Shown here: positions 23,721 to 34,056 of the stretch, one piece after another
Layout of the letters: every line of letters starts with the position of its first letter
How positions within the stretch are numbered: position 1 is the first letter of the stretch
IMG/VR virus record: IMGVR_UViG_3300032073_000109
Location: 1 to 34,057 of that record
Source: a virus
DNA length: 34,057 nt
Strand: one strand, 5' to 3'
Notes under the pieces: generated by a model
Told to the model about the DNA's origin: nothing
Databases searched by the model: none
Seen by the model: the letters and a program-made list of their open reading frames with translations, nothing else
Position numbers and translations under genes: made by a program

Positions 23721-24449
23721 CTACAAACTGTTAATCGGGTTCTCCGCTATTACTGTGGCTATCTCAAAATCAAGATTAAAGGAAACCTCGTTGGGCTGCT
23801 CACCACTGAATGTCGTATTCAAAGAGCGAATGAAGCCAGTCATACCCAAGAGGTCTTCAGCCTCTGCCATATTACTGAAAGCCTCTAATGGTGACTCATC
23901 TATCTCTAGAGCAGATGGCAGGTAGTTGTTCGCTGTTCTCTTGAATTTCTCATCATATCTTCTGTTCTCAAAGGTGAATGGTATCTGAGGAAGCGCATTG
24001 ATATCATCTGATTCACTTGTATTTGTGTGTGGTAGAAAGTTAGTATCTACTCTGCTAGGTATTAGAATAATCAGTTTGTTCATTGCTTGGTCATCCTGTG
24101 CTGCACTGCTATCGACATAGGAGTGAATCAACTGTGCCATCTCAAAGGGCGATAGAGTAGGATGAACAACTGTCTCCCCTGAGTTCTTGGATAGTTTCTG
24201 ATTCAAGAAAACACCAGTCAAACTAACCGTCTTGCTTGCTAATCCCATATCAAAGGCCAGTGTCTCAGACTTTCCAGTTCCTATACTTGCAAACGGAACA
24301 GGAATAGTCGGAACGCTCTTGGATGTGGCTATCTGAATCTCAGTCACAAACAAGGGTATTCTGTTGATTGCCCTATCTCCGCCTTCTTCATTCCTTCTTT
24401 GTAGTTCCAGCCAAACGCTGAAGTTCGTATAATTGTCTCCTACTCCCAT
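23721..24449 (-). CDS. Probable distal tail (Dit-like) protein
   Basis: 242 residues. The ATG at 24449 overlaps the tape measure stop (TAATG), so translation is probably coupled. The N-terminal half is beta-rich (FSVWLELQRRN, IPLFVTEIQIATSK, PVPFASIGTGKSETLAFDMG, KTVSLTGVFLNQKLS), as expected for a ring-forming tail protein domain related to the tube. The C-terminal part ends with strands (GFIRSLNTTFSG, EVSFNLDFEIATVIAE). No signal peptide or membrane segment is visible. In siphoviruses the gene after the tape measure normally encodes Dit, the hexameric ring between tube and hub, and the next large genes here are tip proteins. The call rests on position plus general fold appearance, not on a diagnostic motif. 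It could be another baseplate or hub-associated protein. Confidence 0.5.
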   Translation of the reverse strand: MGVGDNYTNFSVWLELQRRNEEGGDRAINRIPLFVTEIQIATSKSVPTIPVPFASIGTGKSETLAFDMGLASKTVSLTGVFLNQKLSKNSGETVVHPTLSPFEMAQLIHSYVDSSAAQDDQAMNKLIILIPSRVDTNFLPHTNTSESDDINALPQIPFTFENRRYDEKFKRTANNYLPSALEIDESPLEAFSNMAEAEDLLGMTGFIRSLNTTFSGEQPNEVSFNLDFEIATVIAENPINSL

Positions 24450-26416
24450 TAGAATCTCACCACCGATGTTGCTGTTCTATTCATTCTTGAGTTGATTTCC
24501 TTCGCTACCTTGTTTGCTATATCTCTTATCTCAGTATCATTTGCACCAACTCTACCAGTTACCTGAACAGTGATATGATTGTTTATCGTAGTCCCACCAC
24601 TCATCATAGCAGCAGAGTCTCTGTTTGAACTGACTCTAGCACCTGCTGGAAGGTTGACCAACTCCGGTCCTCTTTCTCCAACAACTGCTATTCCTGAATC
24701 CTTTATCGCTCCACCAGTTGCCAAGAACGGTATCTTTTTTGCTATTCCTTTTATTGCATCACTGGGCTTTGGTATCTTGTCAAATATTTCTGATACTGCT
24801 TCCTTTATTCCTCGGATTAAGTCTCCAAGGAAAGAATTCATAACTTTGTCTTTGAAATCCTGAACGAAATCTAGATTGTTTATCCAACTAACTATTCCGG
24901 TTATTAGGGAAACGAGAGGGTCTATTGCGAAATATAACACAGTGGCAATACCTGCTACTAGTAAAGCAGGAAGAGCAAAGGTAGCACCAACTAGCAAGCC
25001 AATCGTACCTACAACCAATGCTATTGCTGCAACTACACCCGATACACCTTTGATTACATTACCAACTCCACCAATGATACCGTTTAGTCCACCACCTAAT
25101 TTATTGAAGCCATCCATGAACAGACTGCTGACGAATCCCCAAATACCTGCTAATAGAGTTCCTACTGTTGCACTTAGAAGACCAACCAGTAATCCGAGGA
25201 AACCAACTACTATTCCGCCTATACCTTCTGCTATCTGCATAAAATCCATGTTCATTATTCCTGAGACTACGTTATACACACCAGTTCCTATTGCCGATAA
25301 TGAGTCATAGACTAACCCTAGACTTGCCATGAATACACTTGCCATTGTTTTGATACCATCGTATATGTTACCCAAGAAAGGTTGAATGAACTTGAAGGCT
25401 GCAACTACCACCATAAGAAGCAGAAGCATCTTCATGAATTGTGCAGCAGCATAGAATACCATTTTGACTATACCAGCCGCTATTGACTTTAGAGCCTTGA
25501 AGGGTGCTTTGAGCATACCCATCATCTTTGCTCTCATACCATTTTGCTTCTTAGTCATCTTTGCAAGTTCGTTTAATTTGTCAAACTGCCTAGAACTTAT
25601 TCTCTGACCCTTGGCATTGAACCTATACAGTTTCCCATCTTTTCCTTGAGTTTCTCTTGGGGCTGCGACCTTTCCTGATTTGTCTAGTAATCCCTCTGTA
25701 TCTACCCCTAACTTACCTGCTTTCTTCTTCATCGCTTCAGTAATCTTGAGTTCCTTGTCTTTACCAAACATATACTGTTTGAGTTCCTTCTTGTTCAACA
25801 TCTCCTTGAACGCACTGAAAGACTTCTGTGCATTCGTTAGTCCTGAATAGTGTTTCATCTTCTCTTTGAAACCAGCCTTCTCAAAATCTAAGGATGCCTT
25901 CGCTGCATCTTGTATCTTCTTAGTTGCATCCACTTGGTCTTGTGTTATTTCTTGCAATACTCTTGCAGCCTTATTCGCATCGTTGTACTTGAACATCAAC
26001 CCTGAGAATATCTCTGACCTCTTCTCCAAGTCAGCGATTTCTTCTTGAGATATCTTACTGCCTTTTTCGATGAATACGTTTAGTTCCTCATTCAACTCAT
26101 TGATTTCTTTTTGGGACTTAGCCAACTCTGCATATTGCTTCAGTTGTTCTGCTTGCTTCAGCCTTGCTTTTTCCGATGTGCTGAGATACTCGTTCAGAAG
26201 CATCACGCTTGCTTTCACTCGATTCTGTAATCTCCAAAGGGGAGTTCCCGATATGAAACGGGAGAAGATAACCCAATTGGTGCTTTTTAGTATGTCATTC
26301 GTACTGCTAACGGAAGCCTGTAATTTTCTGAAATGTTTTGAACCGTCAAGTATCGCTCTATCAATGCCTTCAAACTTAGACTTAATCTCATTGATTTCCT
26401 TGTTGACATCACTCAT
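24449..26416 (-). CDS. Tape measure protein
   Basis: 655 residues from ATG 26416. The first ~230 residues are charged and helical with coiled-coil character (EKARLKQAEQLKQYAELAKS, EINELNEELNVFIEKG). Strongly hydrophobic segments lie near residues 312-345, 397-435 and 457-510. The C-terminus carries the motif common in tape measure proteins: FLATGGAIKD, VVGERGPELVNLPAGARV (about 575-592), then INNHITVQVTGRV and NKVAKEINSRMNR. The protein sets tail length, sits inside the tube, and may leave through the membrane during genome entry. At the usual ~0.15 nm per residue it would imply a tail of roughly 100 nm. It follows the chaperone pair, the standard order. Confidence 0.93.
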   Translation of the reverse strand: MSDVNKEINEIKSKFEGIDRAILDGSKHFRKLQASVSSTNDILKSTNWVIFSRFISGTPLWRLQNRVKASVMLLNEYLSTSEKARLKQAEQLKQYAELAKSQKEINELNEELNVFIEKGSKISQEEIADLEKRSEIFSGLMFKYNDANKAARVLQEITQDQVDATKKIQDAAKASLDFEKAGFKEKMKHYSGLTNAQKSFSAFKEMLNKKELKQYMFGKDKELKITEAMKKKAGKLGVDTEGLLDKSGKVAAPRETQGKDGKLYRFNAKGQRISSRQFDKLNELAKMTKKQNGMRAKMMGMLKAPFKALKSIAAGIVKMVFYAAAQFMKMLLLLMVVVAAFKFIQPFLGNIYDGIKTMASVFMASLGLVYDSLSAIGTGVYNVVSGIMNMDFMQIAEGIGGIVVGFLGLLVGLLSATVGTLLAGIWGFVSSLFMDGFNKLGGGLNGIIGGVGNVIKGVSGVVAAIALVVGTIGLLVGATFALPALLVAGIATVLYFAIDPLVSLITGIVSWINNLDFVQDFKDKVMNSFLGDLIRGIKEAVSEIFDKIPKPSDAIKGIAKKIPFLATGGAIKDSGIAVVGERGPELVNLPAGARVSSNRDSAAMMSGGTTINNHITVQVTGRVGANDTEIRDIANKVAKEINSRMNRTATSVVRF

Positions 26417-27081: not shown

Positions 27082-28650
27082 CTAATTACCTGTTGCCTGA
27101 CCGCCGAGGTTGTAAATTGCCCACTTTCCAGTGTAGTTGCATGAATTCAAGGTTCTAGCAGAAGCAGTTACCTCTACTTCCACTGCACCCTTGTCTTCAG
27201 GGAAAGGCACGTTTACTGAATTTATTATGTAGTCTGCAAATTGCAAGTCTATCTTCTCACCACTATCTTTCTCAAACTTCAATCGTAGAGTACCAGTTGA
27301 CTCATTAGCACTTCTCATCTCATCCCAAAGTTTCGTATCTGTGATTAACATGTTTAGACTGAGTTCATATGTTCTCTGTCCGGGTATGTGGGCAGACATG
27401 GTTTGCCTGTTGTAGTTGCCAATGAATCTCTGAGGTGTCAGGTTGTTTGCTATCGTTAGAGAACCACTCTTGACTCTAGCCATAGACTGACCGAATAGTG
27501 TGATAGTTCCATCCGAGAATAGGAATGGGTAATTGTCAGTCAGTGTTGCACTGTAATTATGCATACCAGTTCCTCCTGATGTGTTTGATGGAGCAGATAA
27601 GTCAGCACCGTTTCCTCCTAGTGGTATGTATCCATTAGGTGCATCGAATGCTCTTCTTGTTACTAGTTCTACACTTGACTTGAGTTCTTGTCCCTCTTCA
27701 AAGTTGAGTGCTAGGCTGTTTACTTGACATCCTGTGAAGATTCTAGAGTACATGTTCTCATTCGGTGTGAGTGAGTCTAGTGCAGAAGATGTAGCACTAC
27801 TACCTGCTTTCCTGTATACCACGTCAAGAGCGAAGGACGGTAGAACATCATTATCTGCTTCTTCAATAGTGTAACTGAATGTAGCACCGTTGTCATTGAA
27901 TGGTACACTAGCAGGGTCTACTATGTCTTCATCAGCACCGTCAGAACCATCGAATATCTCAGGATACATATTCTGTCCTATTACTCTAACAAGTTTCCTA
28001 CCACTACTAGTTCCAACAGTGAATCCTACTCCGTTCTGTGAGCCACTAGCACCTGAGTTTGAACCACTAGCACCTGCTGTAACTGCTAGGTTTGTTATCT
28101 TACCAAGAGTGTAATACAACCAAGACCCGTTGTTCAGGGATAGGTCGAGTGAGCCACCACTGACTGTCTCTGCTCCCTTGTACTGGTAATCGAAGTTCCT
28201 ACCACCAGCAACTGCTAGATTGAGTTGCTTCATTTCCACCTCTACGTTAGGTGGAGTGAATGTGTTGACAAGTCCTACCCAGTTATCTGATTGAATCAAA
28301 GGAGAACCCCCTGATGTCTTCTTTGCGTAGGCAGGTGCGCCGAATGCCATTATAGTTAGATTGTGAGTGTTAGTTCCACTTGAAGTAACGGCAGCATCTA
28401 GGGTAATTGTATTGGTAGTATTGGATACTACCATCCTGTATTCTGTCTCGTTATCAGAAGCGTTCAGGTCTACTTTAGCCATGCATCCAGCATATAGGTC
28501 TGCAACAAGTAACGTATCTCCTTGTTGTCCACTTGATAGTGTGAATAATGTCTTGGCAGCATCAACACTACCTTTCGGGAAAAACAAATCTAACTCAGGA
28601 CAAAAACCTACTTGTGCATTAGCACCTACAAATACTTCATTACTTACCAT
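27082..28650 (-). CDS. Major tail tube protein
   Basis: 522 residues, ATG at 28650 with GAGGG about 7 nt upstream. The protein is beta-rich and acidic with few lysines. The region at residues 365-425 (TLTDNYPFLFSDGTITLFGQ, ARVKSGSLTIANNLTPQRFI, MSAHIPGQRTYELSLNMLI) resembles the phage tail tube family with a VKSGSLTIxNNL-type strand. Gene order (after neck genes, directly before the tail chaperones) is where major tail proteins lie. It is longer than typical tube subunits (about 150-350 residues), so it probably carries extra surface domains: a Gly/Ser/Ala-rich stretch lies around residues 190-215 (TAGASGSNSGASGSQNGVG). It should form stacked rings around the tape measure. There is no neighbouring sheath gene, so the tail is probably non-contractile. 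Confidence 0.82.
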   Translation of the reverse strand: MVSNEVFVGANAQVGFCPELDLFFPKGSVDAAKTLFTLSSGQQGDTLLVADLYAGCMAKVDLNASDNETEYRMVVSNTTNTITLDAAVTSSGTNTHNLTIMAFGAPAYAKKTSGGSPLIQSDNWVGLVNTFTPPNVEVEMKQLNLAVAGGRNFDYQYKGAETVSGGSLDLSLNNGSWLYYTLGKITNLAVTAGASGSNSGASGSQNGVGFTVGTSSGRKLVRVIGQNMYPEIFDGSDGADEDIVDPASVPFNDNGATFSYTIEEADNDVLPSFALDVVYRKAGSSATSSALDSLTPNENMYSRIFTGCQVNSLALNFEEGQELKSSVELVTRRAFDAPNGYIPLGGNGADLSAPSNTSGGTGMHNYSATLTDNYPFLFSDGTITLFGQSMARVKSGSLTIANNLTPQRFIGNYNRQTMSAHIPGQRTYELSLNMLITDTKLWDEMRSANESTGTLRLKFEKDSGEKIDLQFADYIINSVNVPFPEDKGAVEVEVTASARTLNSCNYTGKWAIYNLGGQATGN

Positions 28651-29397: not shown

Positions 29398-30474
29398 TCA
29401 CATAATGAAGTGTATTACATCCTTCTTTCCATTCAGTATCGCATTGGCTTCCTCTAGTAGAATGTCATGCTTTGTCTTCAGGTCGATGTTAGAACCTGTT
29501 TCAGCAATTAGAATAGAGTTGTCGTCATGTCGTATGACTTCAGCCGCAACCAACTTAGTTGCTGCATCTTGTATGGTTGCTGGAACTCTAGCCTCACCAC
29601 TAACGTAGACTACTCTTATTGAGTTGGAATGTAGATGTGGGTATTCTTGCCTGAAGAATATCTTTCCATCCTTTCCTATTGCCCAATAATCTCCGAGTCT
29701 TCTTTGGTCTTGATGGTCTGTGAATGGAGTAGTAGTTCCAGTAGTAGAGGAGATTGTGCAAGCAGAACCATCATCGCCTAGAAGCAAGGATGAGATAACA
29801 ACAGTGTCTCCTGCTTCGCTGTCTGTCGTGGCATAGAAGAAGTCGGATATATTGACGGAAGATGAATTTTGAGCAGTCACAGTCTTAGCAGCAGTTTCAC
29901 CAGTGAACTTCGCAGTCTTATGTGGAAAGACCTCGTTGATTGCATCTGCTATCTGACTAGCAGTTGTCTTAGGTCCGTAGTTGTCAAAGAAGTCTGTCCC
30001 ACTATCTAGATGAAAGTCAAATGCTCCAACTCCCAATATTATTCTCCAAGAACTATTCTGAGGACCACTTGGAACTTTTATTTTAGCAGTAGCAGATGCT
30101 AAATCAATATATTGTGCGCCATTCCAAACTTCCAGTCTTACAATCTTCTGAACGTCTGCTCTCTCTAGTTGAACAAAACCAACATAATCTTTGTATCTTT
30201 GAACTGGGTATGCTCCATGCCTGAAGAACTCAAAGTTATGAAATTCATTATGATAGATTACTGGTCGATATGAATGTCCTACAATATCATCGACTCTCTC
30301 CTCTGCTCTCTTGATTAGATTACCAACTTCAGCAATTGAGGGAGTCGTAGATGAACTGAATGCTGCTATCTGCAATAACTGTGAGACATCAGTATGTGTA
30401 GTGTAGAATCCCTTACCCTGTGAGTAGTTGGCATTGATGTTGGTAAAGTCACTTGGGGAGGATAGTTTGCTCAT
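29398..30474 (-). CDS. Head-tail connector (gp6/gp15-like adaptor) with an extra domain
   Basis: 358 residues from ATG 30474, with GAGGT 8 nt upstream. The longer GTG start at 30480 overlaps the previous stop. The outline matches head-tail connector adaptors. There is an N-terminal helical part (TTPSIAEVGNLIKRAEERVD, DIVGHSYRPVIYHNE), then strands, then a C-terminal helical bundle (VPATIQDAATKLVAAEVIRH, then a KHDILLEEANAIL helix). Adaptors of this type form a 12-mer ring under the portal. About 100 residues in the middle (ILGVGAFDFHLDSGTDFFDN, SQIADAINEVFPHKTAKF, DTVVISSLLLGDDG) look inserted. They have the same helix-then-strand pattern as modules in the LamG-like protein. The gene starts 2 nt after the previous stop. 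Confidence 0.65.
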   Translation of the reverse strand: MSKLSSPSDFTNINANYSQGKGFYTTHTDVSQLLQIAAFSSSTTPSIAEVGNLIKRAEERVDDIVGHSYRPVIYHNEFHNFEFFRHGAYPVQRYKDYVGFVQLERADVQKIVRLEVWNGAQYIDLASATAKIKVPSGPQNSSWRIILGVGAFDFHLDSGTDFFDNYGPKTTASQIADAINEVFPHKTAKFTGETAAKTVTAQNSSSVNISDFFYATTDSEAGDTVVISSLLLGDDGSACTISSTTGTTTPFTDHQDQRRLGDYWAIGKDGKIFFRQEYPHLHSNSIRVVYVSGEARVPATIQDAATKLVAAEVIRHDDNSILIAETGSNIDLKTKHDILLEEANAILNGKKDVIHFIM

Positions 30475-30476
30475 CT

Positions 30477-31715
30477 TCACAACCTCGATATATATCTGTC
30501 CATAGTACGCACTAGTCTATTTATGCTTGCTATTTTTGCCACTGGCTTACTTCCTTCCATGCCACTTGTCTGAACGAATTGTTTTTGTGACATCAGTTTC
30601 AAATCTAGTTCATCATTAGGCTGAGTGACAGTGACTTTAGGTTTCATAGAAGAACCAAAATCTACCTCTATGATTACATCATTGATGTTTATTCTTTGGT
30701 CGTCACCAACAGGTCTGAAGAAGTATCCACCTATCCCTGACATGAACAATTTAAGGAAACCGTCTATCTTATTTTTTTCAAATAACGCATCTATTGCTTT
30801 ACCCCTTAACGTATCTAATCTTCCGATGTATGGCTCAAAGTCTCCATTCTCGTTTATCTCGCCCATCTTTACATTGTCATTAGTGTCATATGTGGTTTTG
30901 AGTCCTGCTATATCCGATGGATTCTTTCCCTGAATTGGAGTGAGTTGTTCCTCTATCTTGGTCTCAAGATACTTTGCTGGATATTGTGTTTCCTTTCTTC
31001 TTGCTGTCGTAGCAAAATTATCATCAATATCCATGCCCATAGTCTTGAACACTTCTCGATAGTATTCCTTCATCTCTATTGTGTATGTTGCTTTTCTTTC
31101 ATTTTTTTCAAGTTTAGTATTTTCTAATAGTTTCTTTTGGTCAATCAGGTCTTTTGGTTCTACACCACGTTCCAGTTTTCCTCTGAATGCCATTCCTTCT
31201 TCCGTTCCGCCAGTATACGCAGCACCAAGTTTAGCAGATTCGGTAAGTTCTCTGAATTTCTTACCCTTTATATTATCATAAAGTAGGTTCTTACCAGTAT
31301 CTAAAACTACATTCACTTTACCATCTTTATCTTTTTCTTTTTTGGTTTTCTCTTGACCAAAGACATCCTTGGAGGATTTTAGTGTCTCATTCTTGTCTAC
31401 TGAGGGAATAACATCTTGATTTTTTATGGTAGTGAATAGTTTTTTCATGTGCTTTTTGAAATACTTGAATTCATCTTCATTCTCAAACTTTTCAGCCCCT
31501 ACACTCAGTAGCCTACGAGTCCTAGTCCTAACTAGGCTGGCATCATCGTTTTTTCTGAAGTTAGCAGGGAATCCACTGAATAGAAATGGAATGAGATAGT
31601 CATCGGCTAGTTCTTTAGCGTCACCATTAAAGGAAGCGACATTTTCTTTGGTCAATTCGTAAGTCCTTTCCACTTTTGGAATAACTTCAGTATCTATAAT
31701 GACAGTCTCGCTCAT
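30477..31715 (-). CDS. Unknown 412-residue protein before the head-tail connector
   Basis: 412 residues, ATG at 31715, 15 nt after the previous stop; the upstream ribosome site is weak. The protein is highly charged and largely helical, with lysine- and glutamate-rich stretches (KFENEDEFKYFKKHMKKLF, EKTKKEKDKDGKVN, KKLLENTKLEKNERKATYT) and no membrane segment or cysteine motif. The C-terminal 130 residues are more structured (LKLFMSGIGGYFFRPVGDDQ, INDVIIEVDFGSSMKPKVTV). I do not recognise a family. It is unlike a portal or major capsid protein in its motifs, though its place just before the connector would suit a head or neck component. A scaffold-like or internal virion role would also fit the charge pattern, without proof. 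Confidence 0.65.
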   Translation of the reverse strand: MSETVIIDTEVIPKVERTYELTKENVASFNGDAKELADDYLIPFLFSGFPANFRKNDDASLVRTRTRRLLSVGAEKFENEDEFKYFKKHMKKLFTTIKNQDVIPSVDKNETLKSSKDVFGQEKTKKEKDKDGKVNVVLDTGKNLLYDNIKGKKFRELTESAKLGAAYTGGTEEGMAFRGKLERGVEPKDLIDQKKLLENTKLEKNERKATYTIEMKEYYREVFKTMGMDIDDNFATTARRKETQYPAKYLETKIEEQLTPIQGKNPSDIAGLKTTYDTNDNVKMGEINENGDFEPYIGRLDTLRGKAIDALFEKNKIDGFLKLFMSGIGGYFFRPVGDDQRININDVIIEVDFGSSMKPKVTVTQPNDELDLKLMSQKQFVQTSGMEGSKPVAKIASINRLVRTMDRYISRL

Positions 31716-31730
31716 TCATCTAGCCCCAAC

Positions 31731-32426
31731 CTACGCCAACCACTTTGCCCACGCTACGGCTTTACCTAATCCTTGTGCTAGTCCAAGACCGCTTTGTGGT
31801 GGAGTGTAAGTAGGTTGTCCGGTTGTAGGGTCAATCCAATATGGATTATTCATTTGGTCATATCCCTGTGGAGGCACAGGATAACCTGATGTGTTATTGA
31901 ATGCCATTGCTTGCTGATTCATTGCATTATTCATGCCCACTGCCATATTGTTTCCCTGTATGTTTGCAGGATTCATGCCTTGTGGATTACCCATTTGTTG
32001 TTGCATTCCACCAGTTTGTGAAGGAGAAGTAAATCCTTGTGACTCTAGGTATTGCTGCTTTGCCATTCTCCTTTGCATGATGACTTCCGAGTTAACGGCA
32101 GTCGCCAGTAGATTCACGATATCCAAGTCTATGTTCTCTTGTGTGATAGTGGTAAACTCTGATAGTGAGTCAGGATGTATTTCTAAGTCTCCATTGTTAT
32201 TAGATACGAATTGAAGTTTAACTAGCATCTGACTGACAACTCTTGTAGTTACGTCTTCTAATAATTGTTCAAATGCAAGAAGAAATTGTTCTCCGTGATA
32301 CTGGAAGAACTCTTCTACATGATTTTCTTGTAACGTTAACAAGTTGTTTACAGACTTAAAATTCTGCTGACTCATTGAATTCATTTGCGTTGATAATGCC
32401 CCGTTTGATGTTCCGAATAATCCCAT
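31731..32426 (-). CDS. Unknown protein with Gln/Met/Asn/Pro-rich C-terminal tail
   Basis: 231 residues; the ATG at 32426 overlaps the previous stop (TAATG). Residues 1-130 are mainly helical (LLTLQENHVEEFFQYHGEQF, LAFEQLLEDVTTRVVSQMLV). Residues about 135-215 are low-complexity, rich in Gln, Met, Asn, Gly and Pro (GGMQQQMGNPQGMNPANIQG, NNAMNQQAMAFNN, YWIDPTTGQPTYTPPQSG), followed by a short helix (LAQGLGKAVAWAKWLA). No signal peptide. It is not a known tail family to me. The disordered, methionine-rich tail could mediate assembly or membrane contacts. It lies in the block between the GTPase and the neck genes, which may be either virion or accessory. Confidence 0.65.
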   Translation of the reverse strand: MGLFGTSNGALSTQMNSMSQQNFKSVNNLLTLQENHVEEFFQYHGEQFLLAFEQLLEDVTTRVVSQMLVKLQFVSNNNGDLEIHPDSLSEFTTITQENIDLDIVNLLATAVNSEVIMQRRMAKQQYLESQGFTSPSQTGGMQQQMGNPQGMNPANIQGNNMAVGMNNAMNQQAMAFNNTSGYPVPPQGYDQMNNPYWIDPTTGQPTYTPPQSGLGLAQGLGKAVAWAKWLA

Positions 32427-33118
32427 TATGCTTCACTCTCCGTTGTCTCGACAGGCACTTCGACACCATTCGTCAATAAGGACTTAACTCTCTCTGACAT
32501 GGCTGATTGCTGAATCATTAGAGAATACAATTGCTCTTCAGGAGATGCAGAGGCATTCCGTGGAGGAGATATGCTCCAACCTAGAGAAGAAAGAGAATTG
32601 ATGTCTTCTTGCCTTAAATTGGTAAGTGGTCCTGACTTAACTAGATTAACTGGGTTCAAACTTCTAGCAGATGGTATATATGCACTGAATGAAAGACCAT
32701 GTTCCTCTGCTAGTATCTGTTGCTCCAACATCTCATACTGCATATGTATCGCTGCATGTTTCTCACAGTAAGTTCCTCTCATCGGATATCCCTTGCGAAC
32801 CTTGTGCAGTGGAAGCGGAGGTCTTCTAGTGTCATCTGCCGTCCAAAATTTCTGTGTACCACATATCACACATCTGTCTTTGTAGTTATATTTGAAAGAA
32901 TAAGGTATCTTTAGAAATTTTTTCTTCTCAGGTTTCAGTACCTTAACTATCTCTTTCAATTGTTTCTTAGGCTTCATCGCCTTGTATTCATAAGCCATTA
33001 CAGGACCAGCCGCCCTAGCCGCAGTAAAGCGGTCTAAGAAGGGATTGATGCTATTTGTATTGACTGTTGCATTCGTTGCTCCAATAAGACTTGGAGGCTG
33101 AAATTGTTGCATTGCCAT
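32426..33118 (-). CDS. Zinc-finger-like protein of unknown function
   Basis: 230 residues from ATG 33118, chosen because AAGGAG lies 11 nt upstream. A GTG at 33148 in the same frame lies inside a hairpin and has no ribosome site. Counting from this start, Cys83 and Cys86 (DRCVICGTQKFW) and Cys118 and His121 (GTYCEKHAAIH) form a CxxC-x31-CxxH zinc site. A basic stretch precedes it (KPKKQLKEIVKVLKPEKKKF). The C-terminal half is helical and proline/serine-containing (EEQLYSLMIQQSAMSERVKS). The zinc site could hold a nucleic acid or protein contact. I do not know the family. It is co-transcribed with the GTPase upstream and the Gln/Met-rich protein downstream. Confidence 0.7.
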   Translation of the reverse strand: MAMQQFQPPSLIGATNATVNTNSINPFLDRFTAARAAGPVMAYEYKAMKPKKQLKEIVKVLKPEKKKFLKIPYSFKYNYKDRCVICGTQKFWTADDTRRPPLPLHKVRKGYPMRGTYCEKHAAIHMQYEMLEQQILAEEHGLSFSAYIPSARSLNPVNLVKSGPLTNLRQEDINSLSSLGWSISPPRNASASPEEQLYSLMIQQSAMSERVKSLLTNGVEVPVETTESEA

Positions 33119-33140
33119 TCTTTTTTCAACTCCTTTTGAT

Positions 33141-33159
33141 AGGCTCACGCTATGAGCCT
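33141..33159 (-). other. Hairpin between GTPase and zinc-finger genes
   Basis: A perfect 7-bp inverted repeat, aggctca and tgagcct, around a 5-nt loop. It lies in the 56-nt gap between the GTPase stop and the preferred ATG at 33118. No T-run follows on the transcript strand, so it is not a good intrinsic terminator. It overlaps the alternative GTG start at 33148 and argues against that start. It may tune expression or RNA stability. Confidence 0.45.
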
Positions 33160-33174
33160 GTCTATGCTGACTAA

Positions 33175-33846
33175 CTAGTAGTCTTTTATCATTGTTAGGA
33201 TTCCTCGATAAACCATTTCAGAATCTGACTTAGCACTGACAATGTATTTGTGGCAAGGAATACCAGCATCGTTTAGTTTCTGCAAACCGGGTTTAAATGA
33301 TTCAAAAATTGGATGGTTCTCTATCTTACCGTCATGAGGATACTTGTCTTTCCATAAGTCATACTTGTTAGCCCATAACCCAACCGCTACTGGAAAGTCA
33401 TGGTATTGCTTTTTCTTCTTCCTACCACCAGTCTCCCAATACTTATTGCAGATTGTATCTACTAGAAACGTCCAACATAGTTGTTGCTCAATGTCATAGT
33501 GCTTGCTTAGATGTCTATCATCGAACATGAATATGATATATTTCACATGCCTACTACGCATGTCCTTTACCCATTCACCCCAGTATACTGTCTGACCACC
33601 TATATCTGCTGTCTTCACAGTATGTGCATCACCATCAATCTTCACGAATTTTCTACTTGCTCTATGTCTGCCTACTGTTCTCTTTGCTATTTCAGGAACT
33701 TCCCCTCTAGTCATCAGTTGCTTATGCAGCGTAGTTTTACCTGCTTGACTAGCACCGTAGACTCCGAAATTAATAGCATGAAGTCGGTTATACAGTTTAT
33801 TCATGGCTTCAACCATTAGTATTGCAAACCCTGCCATTACCGACAT
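33175..33846 (-). CDS. Arf/Ras-like small GTPase
   Basis: 223 residues, ATG at 33846 with GAGGTGA 4 nt upstream. All five GTPase boxes are present: G1 GASQAGKT (31-38), a candidate G2 Thr57, G3 DIGGQ (81-85, with the catalytic-type Gln), G4 NKYD (160-163) and G5 SAK (204-206). The DIGGQ and the TLHKQLMT helix look most like Arf/SR-beta-type enzymes or bacterial MglA. Residues 3-13 (VMAGFAILMVE) are hydrophobic, like the membrane-touching N-terminal helix of Arf. A basic loop, GRKKKKQ, lies at 141-147. It probably binds and hydrolyses GTP. Its partner and purpose are unknown. It is unusual beside a tail-assembly operon and may be a host-derived gene or a virion-assembly factor. Confidence 0.88.
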   Translation of the reverse strand: MSVMAGFAILMVEAMNKLYNRLHAINFGVYGASQAGKTTLHKQLMTRGEVPEIAKRTVGRHRASRKFVKIDGDAHTVKTADIGGQTVYWGEWVKDMRSRHVKYIIFMFDDRHLSKHYDIEQQLCWTFLVDTICNKYWETGGRKKKKQYHDFPVAVGLWANKYDLWKDKYPHDGKIENHPIFESFKPGLQKLNDAGIPCHKYIVSAKSDSEMVYRGILTMIKDY

Positions 33847-33900
33847 GCTATCACCTCTTCAGTGAGTCGGATGTCATAGAGCATTAAAATGGTTGAGAAG

Positions 33901-34056
33901 TCAATGACCGCCCCAAAGTGAACTTAGTACATGCCATCCACCTGAGAAAAGATTCACTCCAAATACCGCTACTGCATGGCCTATGAAGAAACAAGTAACG
34001 GAAGAGATTGCGCCCCAAAGCCAAAACCTTGCTCTCAAAAACCAAACATCAGCAGA
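33901..34056 (-). CDS. C-terminal end of a small membrane protein (partial)
   Basis: The last 51 codons of a gene whose start lies beyond the window edge. It ends with TGA at 33901-33903, 54 nt before the GTPase start. The sequence is aromatic and hydrophobic (VWFLRARFWLWGAISSVTCF, then FIGHAVAVFGVNLF and HVLSSLWGGH) and would make one or two membrane segments. The frame is the only open one here on the minus strand that I checked. Function is unknown. It could be a holin-like or other small viral membrane protein, without direct support. Confidence 0.5.
   Translation of the reverse strand, partial: SADVWFLRARFWLWGAISSVTCFFIGHAVAVFGVNLFSGGWHVLSSLWGGH

Follow-up and report, generated by a model that had tools for sequence, protein, structure and literature searches.

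The stretch of viral DNA analysed here (the window, 34,057 nucleotides) carries a gene for a complete small GTPase, together with genes for structural proteins of a tailed virus on the same strand (Table 1). The preliminary description of the window had placed the GTPase gene at the head of a tail operon. The gene does lie beside structural genes but it does not head them, since portal, DNA ligase-like protein, protease, capsid protein (MCP) and two membrane protein genes precede it in longer related loci. The window ends 211 bases upstream of the GTPase gene and the last codons of the membrane protein TM1 lie within these bases; the apparent head position is therefore an artefact of the window edge.

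Table 1 Features of the window surrounding the GTPase gene
Feature	Position	Strand	Basis
Small GTPase, Ras/Arf superfamily, 223 aa	33175..33846	−	Intact ORF from ATG, motifs, fold, shuffle controls
Shine-Dalgarno-like GAGGTGAT	33850..33857	−	Three bases 5' of the GTPase start codon
TM1, 3' part, last 51 codons (SADVWFLRARFWLWG...LWGGH*)	33901..34056	−	Translation; cut by the window end
Zinc-knuckle-like protein (ZnF), CxxC...CxxH, 240 aa, fourth cassette gene	32426..33148	−	Alignment
Conserved 231-aa protein after the cassette (MGLFGTSN...LLTLQENHVEEFFQYHGE)	31731..32426	−	Sequence comparison with relatives
Adaptor-like protein	29398..30480	−	Family vs HVTV-1 gp125 (hhalign probability 91.9, E 7e-7); phrog_17057
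Tail tube protein	27082..28650	−	Pfam Phage_tube_2, E 1.3e-16
Tape measure protein	24449..26416	−	PHROG 991, E 2.5e-13

The statement that the small GTPase is complete, with G1, G3, G4 and G5 intact, was confirmed: G1 is GASQAGKTT (residues 31-39), G3 DIGGQ (residues 81-85), G4 NKYD (residues 160-163) and G5 SAK (residues 204-206). The G2 threonine (Thr57), not listed previously, is also present. The residues of G1, G4 and G5, the G2 Thr and the G3 Asp and Gly are invariant across 171 relatives, with Thr57 and Asp81 found in 171/171 and DxGG unchanged throughout. When the residues of the protein were shuffled, none of 200,000 shuffles yielded the full motif set (G1 GxxxxGK[ST], G2 Thr, G3 DxxG, G4 NKxD, G5 SA[KL]) in order and with the spacing, and when the bases of the region were shuffled 2000 times, the longest open frame reached 74 codons in the median shuffle and never exceeded 190, as against the actual 223. 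A Shine-Dalgarno-like string precedes the start codon in 111 of the 171 relatives and occurs at 16% of random positions. At residue 85, which corresponds to Gln61 of Ras, 121 of the 171 relatives have Glu and only 50 have Gln, and the catalytic-type glutamine singled out earlier is thus not a family feature. At least two changes between Gln and Glu are needed on the tree of the relatives; as two suffice, repeated toggling cannot be claimed. Since Glu at the Gln61 position of Ras speeds intrinsic hydrolysis, Glu at residue 85 need not denote a dead enzyme. From these motifs we infer that the viral protein binds and hydrolyses GTP.

The AlphaFold2 model of the GTPase, built from 23 relatives, is of medium confidence (pLDDT 68, pTM 0.68; residues 34-61 poorly predicted) and consists of an N-terminal helix (residues 3-22) followed by the strand and helix order of a G domain. 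The structure prediction proposed as a check in the preliminary description thus matched G-protein structures: Foldseek found 1531 PDB chains at E ≤ 0.001, and the best matches listed were heterotrimeric G-alpha proteins, with E down to 3.8e-9. In a library of viral structures, the best 50 matches listed were mostly small GTPases of giant viruses (best E 7.8e-7), and no tailed virus was named among them. The curated cut-offs of the Pfam models Roc, Arf, Ras and MMR_HSR1 and of the NCBIfam model small_GTP were not reached. The best Pfam model for the window protein was Roc (E 8e-5, 23.3 of 27 bits), small_GTP scored 25.3 of 42.5 bits, and the SRPRB model gave E 1e-4 at best with the GTPase family, which also showed weak similarity to Arf and Roc. 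As all scores fell below the cut-offs, the family models do not support placing the protein in Arf, Ras, MglA or SR-beta, and such a placement was rejected. The model PF00025 also matches in E. coli and in most control genomes and is therefore not discriminating. The motifs and the predicted fold support a place in the Ras superfamily (TRAFAC), within which no named family can be assigned.

The GTPase shares with Arf and SR-beta a single G domain, a DxGG(Q) G3 and a hydrophobic N-terminal helix before the P-loop. It differs from them in scoring below every curated cut-off, in having Ser2 instead of Gly2, a weakly amphipathic helix and Glu85 more often than Gln85, and in being encoded in a structural cassette of a tailed virus. 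The suggestion that the N-terminus is hydrophobic as in Arf holds for the hydrophobic helix itself, but not for its weak amphipathicity (hydrophobic moment 0.18-0.32) or for residue 2, which is Ser in 170 of 171 relatives and leaves no myristoylatable Gly2. For the same reasons, and with no Arf-model match above the cut-off, Arf-like cannot be retained as a statement of membership. Residues 2-13 are hydrophobic throughout (Eisenberg mean 0.65), and the mean hydropathy of the N-terminal segment is 1.48, borderline for a transmembrane segment given the usual threshold of 1.6, which is reached in 41% of the relatives. Judged by this composition, the helix appears more like a membrane-inserting segment than like the Arf helix. 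Little or no variation is seen at its residues 4, 6, 7, 9 and 13 or over much of the C-terminal helix, as would be expected if both ends of the protein contact partners.

Ras-superfamily GTPases are well known in cells, and the viral protein shares with MglA and Rup the character of a prokaryotic single-domain switch of this superfamily (PMC4316618). MglA, however, lacks the conserved Asp in G3 (PMC4316618, PMC3000849), which is present in 171/171 members of the viral family, whereas Group 2 Rup proteins are archaeal and have this Asp (PMC4316618). No MglB/roadblock-like partner was identified among the genes adjoining the viral GTPase gene. The Ras/Rab/Ran GTPases of giant viruses (Pithovirus, Klosneuvirus and others) are likewise virus-encoded and have a similar predicted fold, but they show mostly 9-19% identity to the viral GTPase in structural alignments, belong to viruses of eukaryotic hosts and, as far as is known, lie outside conserved structural cassettes.

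The GTPase gene is the third gene of a cassette of invariant order, which consists of TM2 (127-146 aa, two hydrophobic segments and a long conserved polar C-terminal tail), TM1 (72-75 aa, one hydrophobic segment), the GTPase and the zinc-knuckle protein ZnF. In all GTPase loci with sufficient room, the other three genes were present (TM2 in 221/221, TM1 in 223/223, ZnF in 216/216), and the median distance from the TM1 stop to the GTPase start is 4 nt. On the head side, long loci carry the portal gene, several further genes, and genes for a ligase-domain protein, the protease, MCP and decoration-like proteins ahead of TM2; ZnF is followed by genes for a 231-237 aa protein, a variable protein, the adaptor, the tail tube, tail assembly proteins and the tape measure protein. 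The sole interruption of the cassette seen is an extra ORF of 178-183 aa with an MWKNILK or MWKDILK start between TM1 and the GTPase gene in some of the viruses (L102:5445-5996 and L165:5459-5995). The gene between that for the 231-237 aa protein and the adaptor gene varies from 412 to 1153 aa across the relatives while its neighbours are fixed (L077:12079-14028, L060:12098-15559, L012:12138-13574; 30477-31715 in the window). TM1, TM2 and ZnF gave nothing significant in profile searches against PDB or in single-protein scans against PHROGs and Pfam, and the AlphaFold2 model of ZnF reached pLDDT 61 and pTM 0.43. Since these three proteins match no known family, their partnership with the GTPase is suggested by gene order, and genes of a late operon can be constant neighbours without their products forming a complex together.

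By an alignment-based scan, relatives of the GTPase are encoded in at least 304 IMG/VR contigs, and a second query from a clade of 62% identity found 188; some contigs may have been counted in both sets, and nearly identical ones are numerous (171 GTPase proteins form 80 groups at 96.5% identity). Presence of the gene beside structural genes in related contigs, which had been suggested as a check, thus recurs in hundreds of viral contigs. Three samplings that did not select on the whole GTPase protein, using an MCP profile, PolB and a P-loop DNA pattern, all agreed. Among the marine loci fetched by the MCP profile led by HVTV-1, the GTPase gene was found in 48 of the 48 with more than 4 kb downstream of MCP. 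Over 214 loci the MCP and GTPase genes shared a strand without exception and were separated by 1306-2857 bases (median 1855). Similarly, the gene occurred in 12/12 long marine records that were fetched by PolB and contained MCP; it was absent from 8/8 PolB-fetched marine records without MCP, all of them fragments below 60 kb. All 116 contig stretches newly fetched by the P-loop pattern belonged to the viral GTPase family, with TM1 alongside in 112 and TM2 in 107. The GTPase is thus universal in the sampled marine viruses with this MCP, a sample that probably misses some published magrovirus groups (C, D and E), and its gene is single-copy and locked into the structural block.

Small GTPases do look rare in tailed viruses, as had been supposed: the viral structural matches were mostly giant viruses, and the GTPase had no match in 50,697 phage records, a result that says little on magroviruses because the MCP search found none in the same collection either. 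A scan of 84,980 cellular genomes with two peptides, narrow enough for distant host homologues to escape it, gave matches only in two contigs (L092 and L093) of one alphaproteobacterial MAG, Maricaulis sp. IN14. These are apparently misbinned magrovirus-type contigs, and L093 has the full viral gene order.

The relative G001 (102.7 kb) encodes PolB, RFC, a TFIIB zinc ribbon, RNR, a DNA ligase domain, TerL, the portal and an S78 protease, and the replication and structural genes of the relatives lie on opposite strands. The PolB of this record (L099:14891-17952, minus strand) occupies separate ORFs about 1 kb apart, which accords with the PolB-NTD/CTD split reported for Aoguangviridae. Magrovirales have been described as having a split-looking family B DNA polymerase, RFC, a TFB-like protein, a genome of 90-110 kb and an HK97-type structural module on the opposite strand (PMC10768690). 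By the gene content of these relatives the source virus fits this description and is a magrovirus-type tailed virus (PMC10768690, PMC12999244), an assignment made on long relatives, as the window is a 34-kb fragment with only the structural part. The published hosts of magroviruses are Poseidoniales, Marine Group II archaea (PMC10768690, PMC12999244).

The MCP of the relative L012 matches those of HVTV-1 and HCTV-1 (E 1e-19 to 1e-22; 25-28% identity, tblastn). These Druskaviridae share with the marine viruses the related MCP, the adaptor (gp125) and the order of the head and neck genes, but the TM2-TM1-GTPase-ZnF cassette is absent and an unrelated 110-aa single-TM protein, gp124, fills the slot, with gp125 directly after it. 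The GTPase is absent from HVTV-1, HCTV-1 and HCTV-5 (3/3), which were also among the records fetched by PolB and in which MCP is present. None of HVTV-1 gp121-gp128 matched TM2, TM1, ZnF or the GTPase in hhalign comparisons, in which the adaptor-gp125 match served as positive control; this match (probability 92) indicates that the method works and anchors the synteny. The cassette thus either was inserted between the head and neck genes in this lineage alone or takes the place of what the haloviruses have there.

The GTPase has a median dN/dS (omega) of 0.065 over 150 pairs (Nei-Gojobori, ungapped), compared with 0.09 for MCP, the GTPase value being approximate as dS is near saturation. Between the two main clades, the GTPase is 63% identical, MCP 64%, the protease 57% and the adaptor 51%; of the other cassette proteins, TM2 reaches 51%, ZnF 46% and TM1 39%. 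The GTPase is therefore under strong purifying selection and as conserved as MCP, which bears out the earlier supposition that the gene is in use.

An N-terminal tag, M[STNAG]Wxx[IVL][LIV]K (typically MSWFDILK), is shared by 12 different late-strand proteins of one 102.7-kb magrovirus record (L097:269, 2385, 3245, 3768 and 9027; L077:1221, 1541 and 2374; L101:12090, 12563, 13195 and 16259), one of which has a TTG-type start. No such tag was found in the reversed-peptide control, and MSWFDILK-like starts also occur in L012 and L060. It resembles in kind the tag on internal proteins of T4 and may serve to target proteins to the capsid or to mark them as cargo.

Both roles proposed in the preliminary description, control of the host membrane and virion assembly, are plausible. 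The reading that we prefer, with a probability of roughly 0.45, is that the GTPase is an obligatory, virus-owned GTP switch that is held at a membrane and acts in late assembly or release. It would be made together with the capsid and tail proteins, act late and work in its GTP-loaded form at the host cytoplasmic membrane, where its own hydrophobic N-terminal helix and, as we infer, TM2 and TM1 would anchor it. There its most likely task would be to gate how proheads and neck proteins are recruited to the membrane or assembled on it, or their release from it. The membrane site is favoured because two co-conserved membrane proteins are encoded upstream, and assembly ranks ahead of the other roles on account of the position of the genes, within the head-to-neck block, and of a universality equal to that of MCP.

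The same two small membrane proteins, encoded directly upstream of the GTPase, coupled to it and belonging to the late module, might instead form a release lesion or platform, with the GTPase timing or driving the remodelling of the membrane, whether the virus leaves by lysis or without it. Among the genes scanned, in a search that was not exhaustive, none was recognised as a lysis gene, which would suit such a role. On the other hand, TM2 with its long conserved polar tail is unlike simple holins, the haloviruses with the same head genes hold one unrelated TM protein in the slot, and lysis genes are unusual inside a head-neck block, so we regard an egress module as rather unlikely. A role in entry, in which the virion would carry the GTPase and the membrane proteins, either packaged or bound at the portal vertex, for action on the host membrane during DNA delivery, draws on the MCP-like conservation of the GTPase and on the fact that genes between MCP and the neck proteins usually encode virion parts. 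It appears improbable, because the GTPase lacks the MSWxDILK tag of the 12 other late proteins, if that is a packaging tag, and because to our knowledge ejection in known tailed viruses needs no nucleotide switch.

The DxGG(Q/E) G3 and the weak matches to the SRPRB, Arf and Roc models would also suit an effector that mimics or competes with an Arf/Rup-like GTPase of the host and redirects membrane or polarity functions. Yet the gene is universal and single-copy and sits among the structural genes, not in an early region of variable content, which argues against it, as does, weakly, the lack of a host homologue in the two-peptide scan of cellular genomes, and we give this explanation still less credence than entry. 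An ordinary host gene caught by misassembly, named earlier together with absence from the relatives as an outcome that would overturn the viral interpretation, was rejected: the neighbours are the same in hundreds of contigs, the contig from the lone MAG is itself viral in gene order, and no evidence supporting such an origin was found. Misassembly is hardly credible, and within the scope of the tests neither outcome holds.

By its sequence, the protein is a small GTPase in a new setting and would represent a new sequence family that no curated model claims. We did not find literature pairing 'magrovirus' with 'GTPase'; prior annotation in Philosof 2017, Prabhu 2025 or Zhou 2023 is possible. 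We tentatively propose, at somewhat less than even odds and with less assurance than for the switch as such, that magroviruses run an obligatory step of morphogenesis or exit by means of their own membrane-anchored GTPase and two dedicated membrane partners. No other tailed virus is known to have a switch module of this kind, which would also exemplify Arf/SR-beta-style membrane switching in an archaeal virus. In the usual view, particle building in tailed viruses relies on self-assembling proteins, on proteases and on a single packaging ATPase. That a switch should match the capsid protein in conservation throughout a whole group of marine viruses implies a step under GTP control, probably linked to the membrane, for which textbook phage assembly has no counterpart. 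Magroviruses are reported to be among the most abundant marine viruses, and we know of no cultured member. For these viruses the GTPase provides a directly testable biochemical target and, for the clade, a marker gene whose position in the genome is exactly defined. It may also bear on the origin of the archaeal Arf/Rup-like GTPases and on whether viruses carried them. We tentatively propose, at somewhat less than even odds and with less assurance than for the switch as such, that magroviruses run an obligatory step of morphogenesis or exit by means of their own membrane-anchored GTPase and two dedicated membrane partners.
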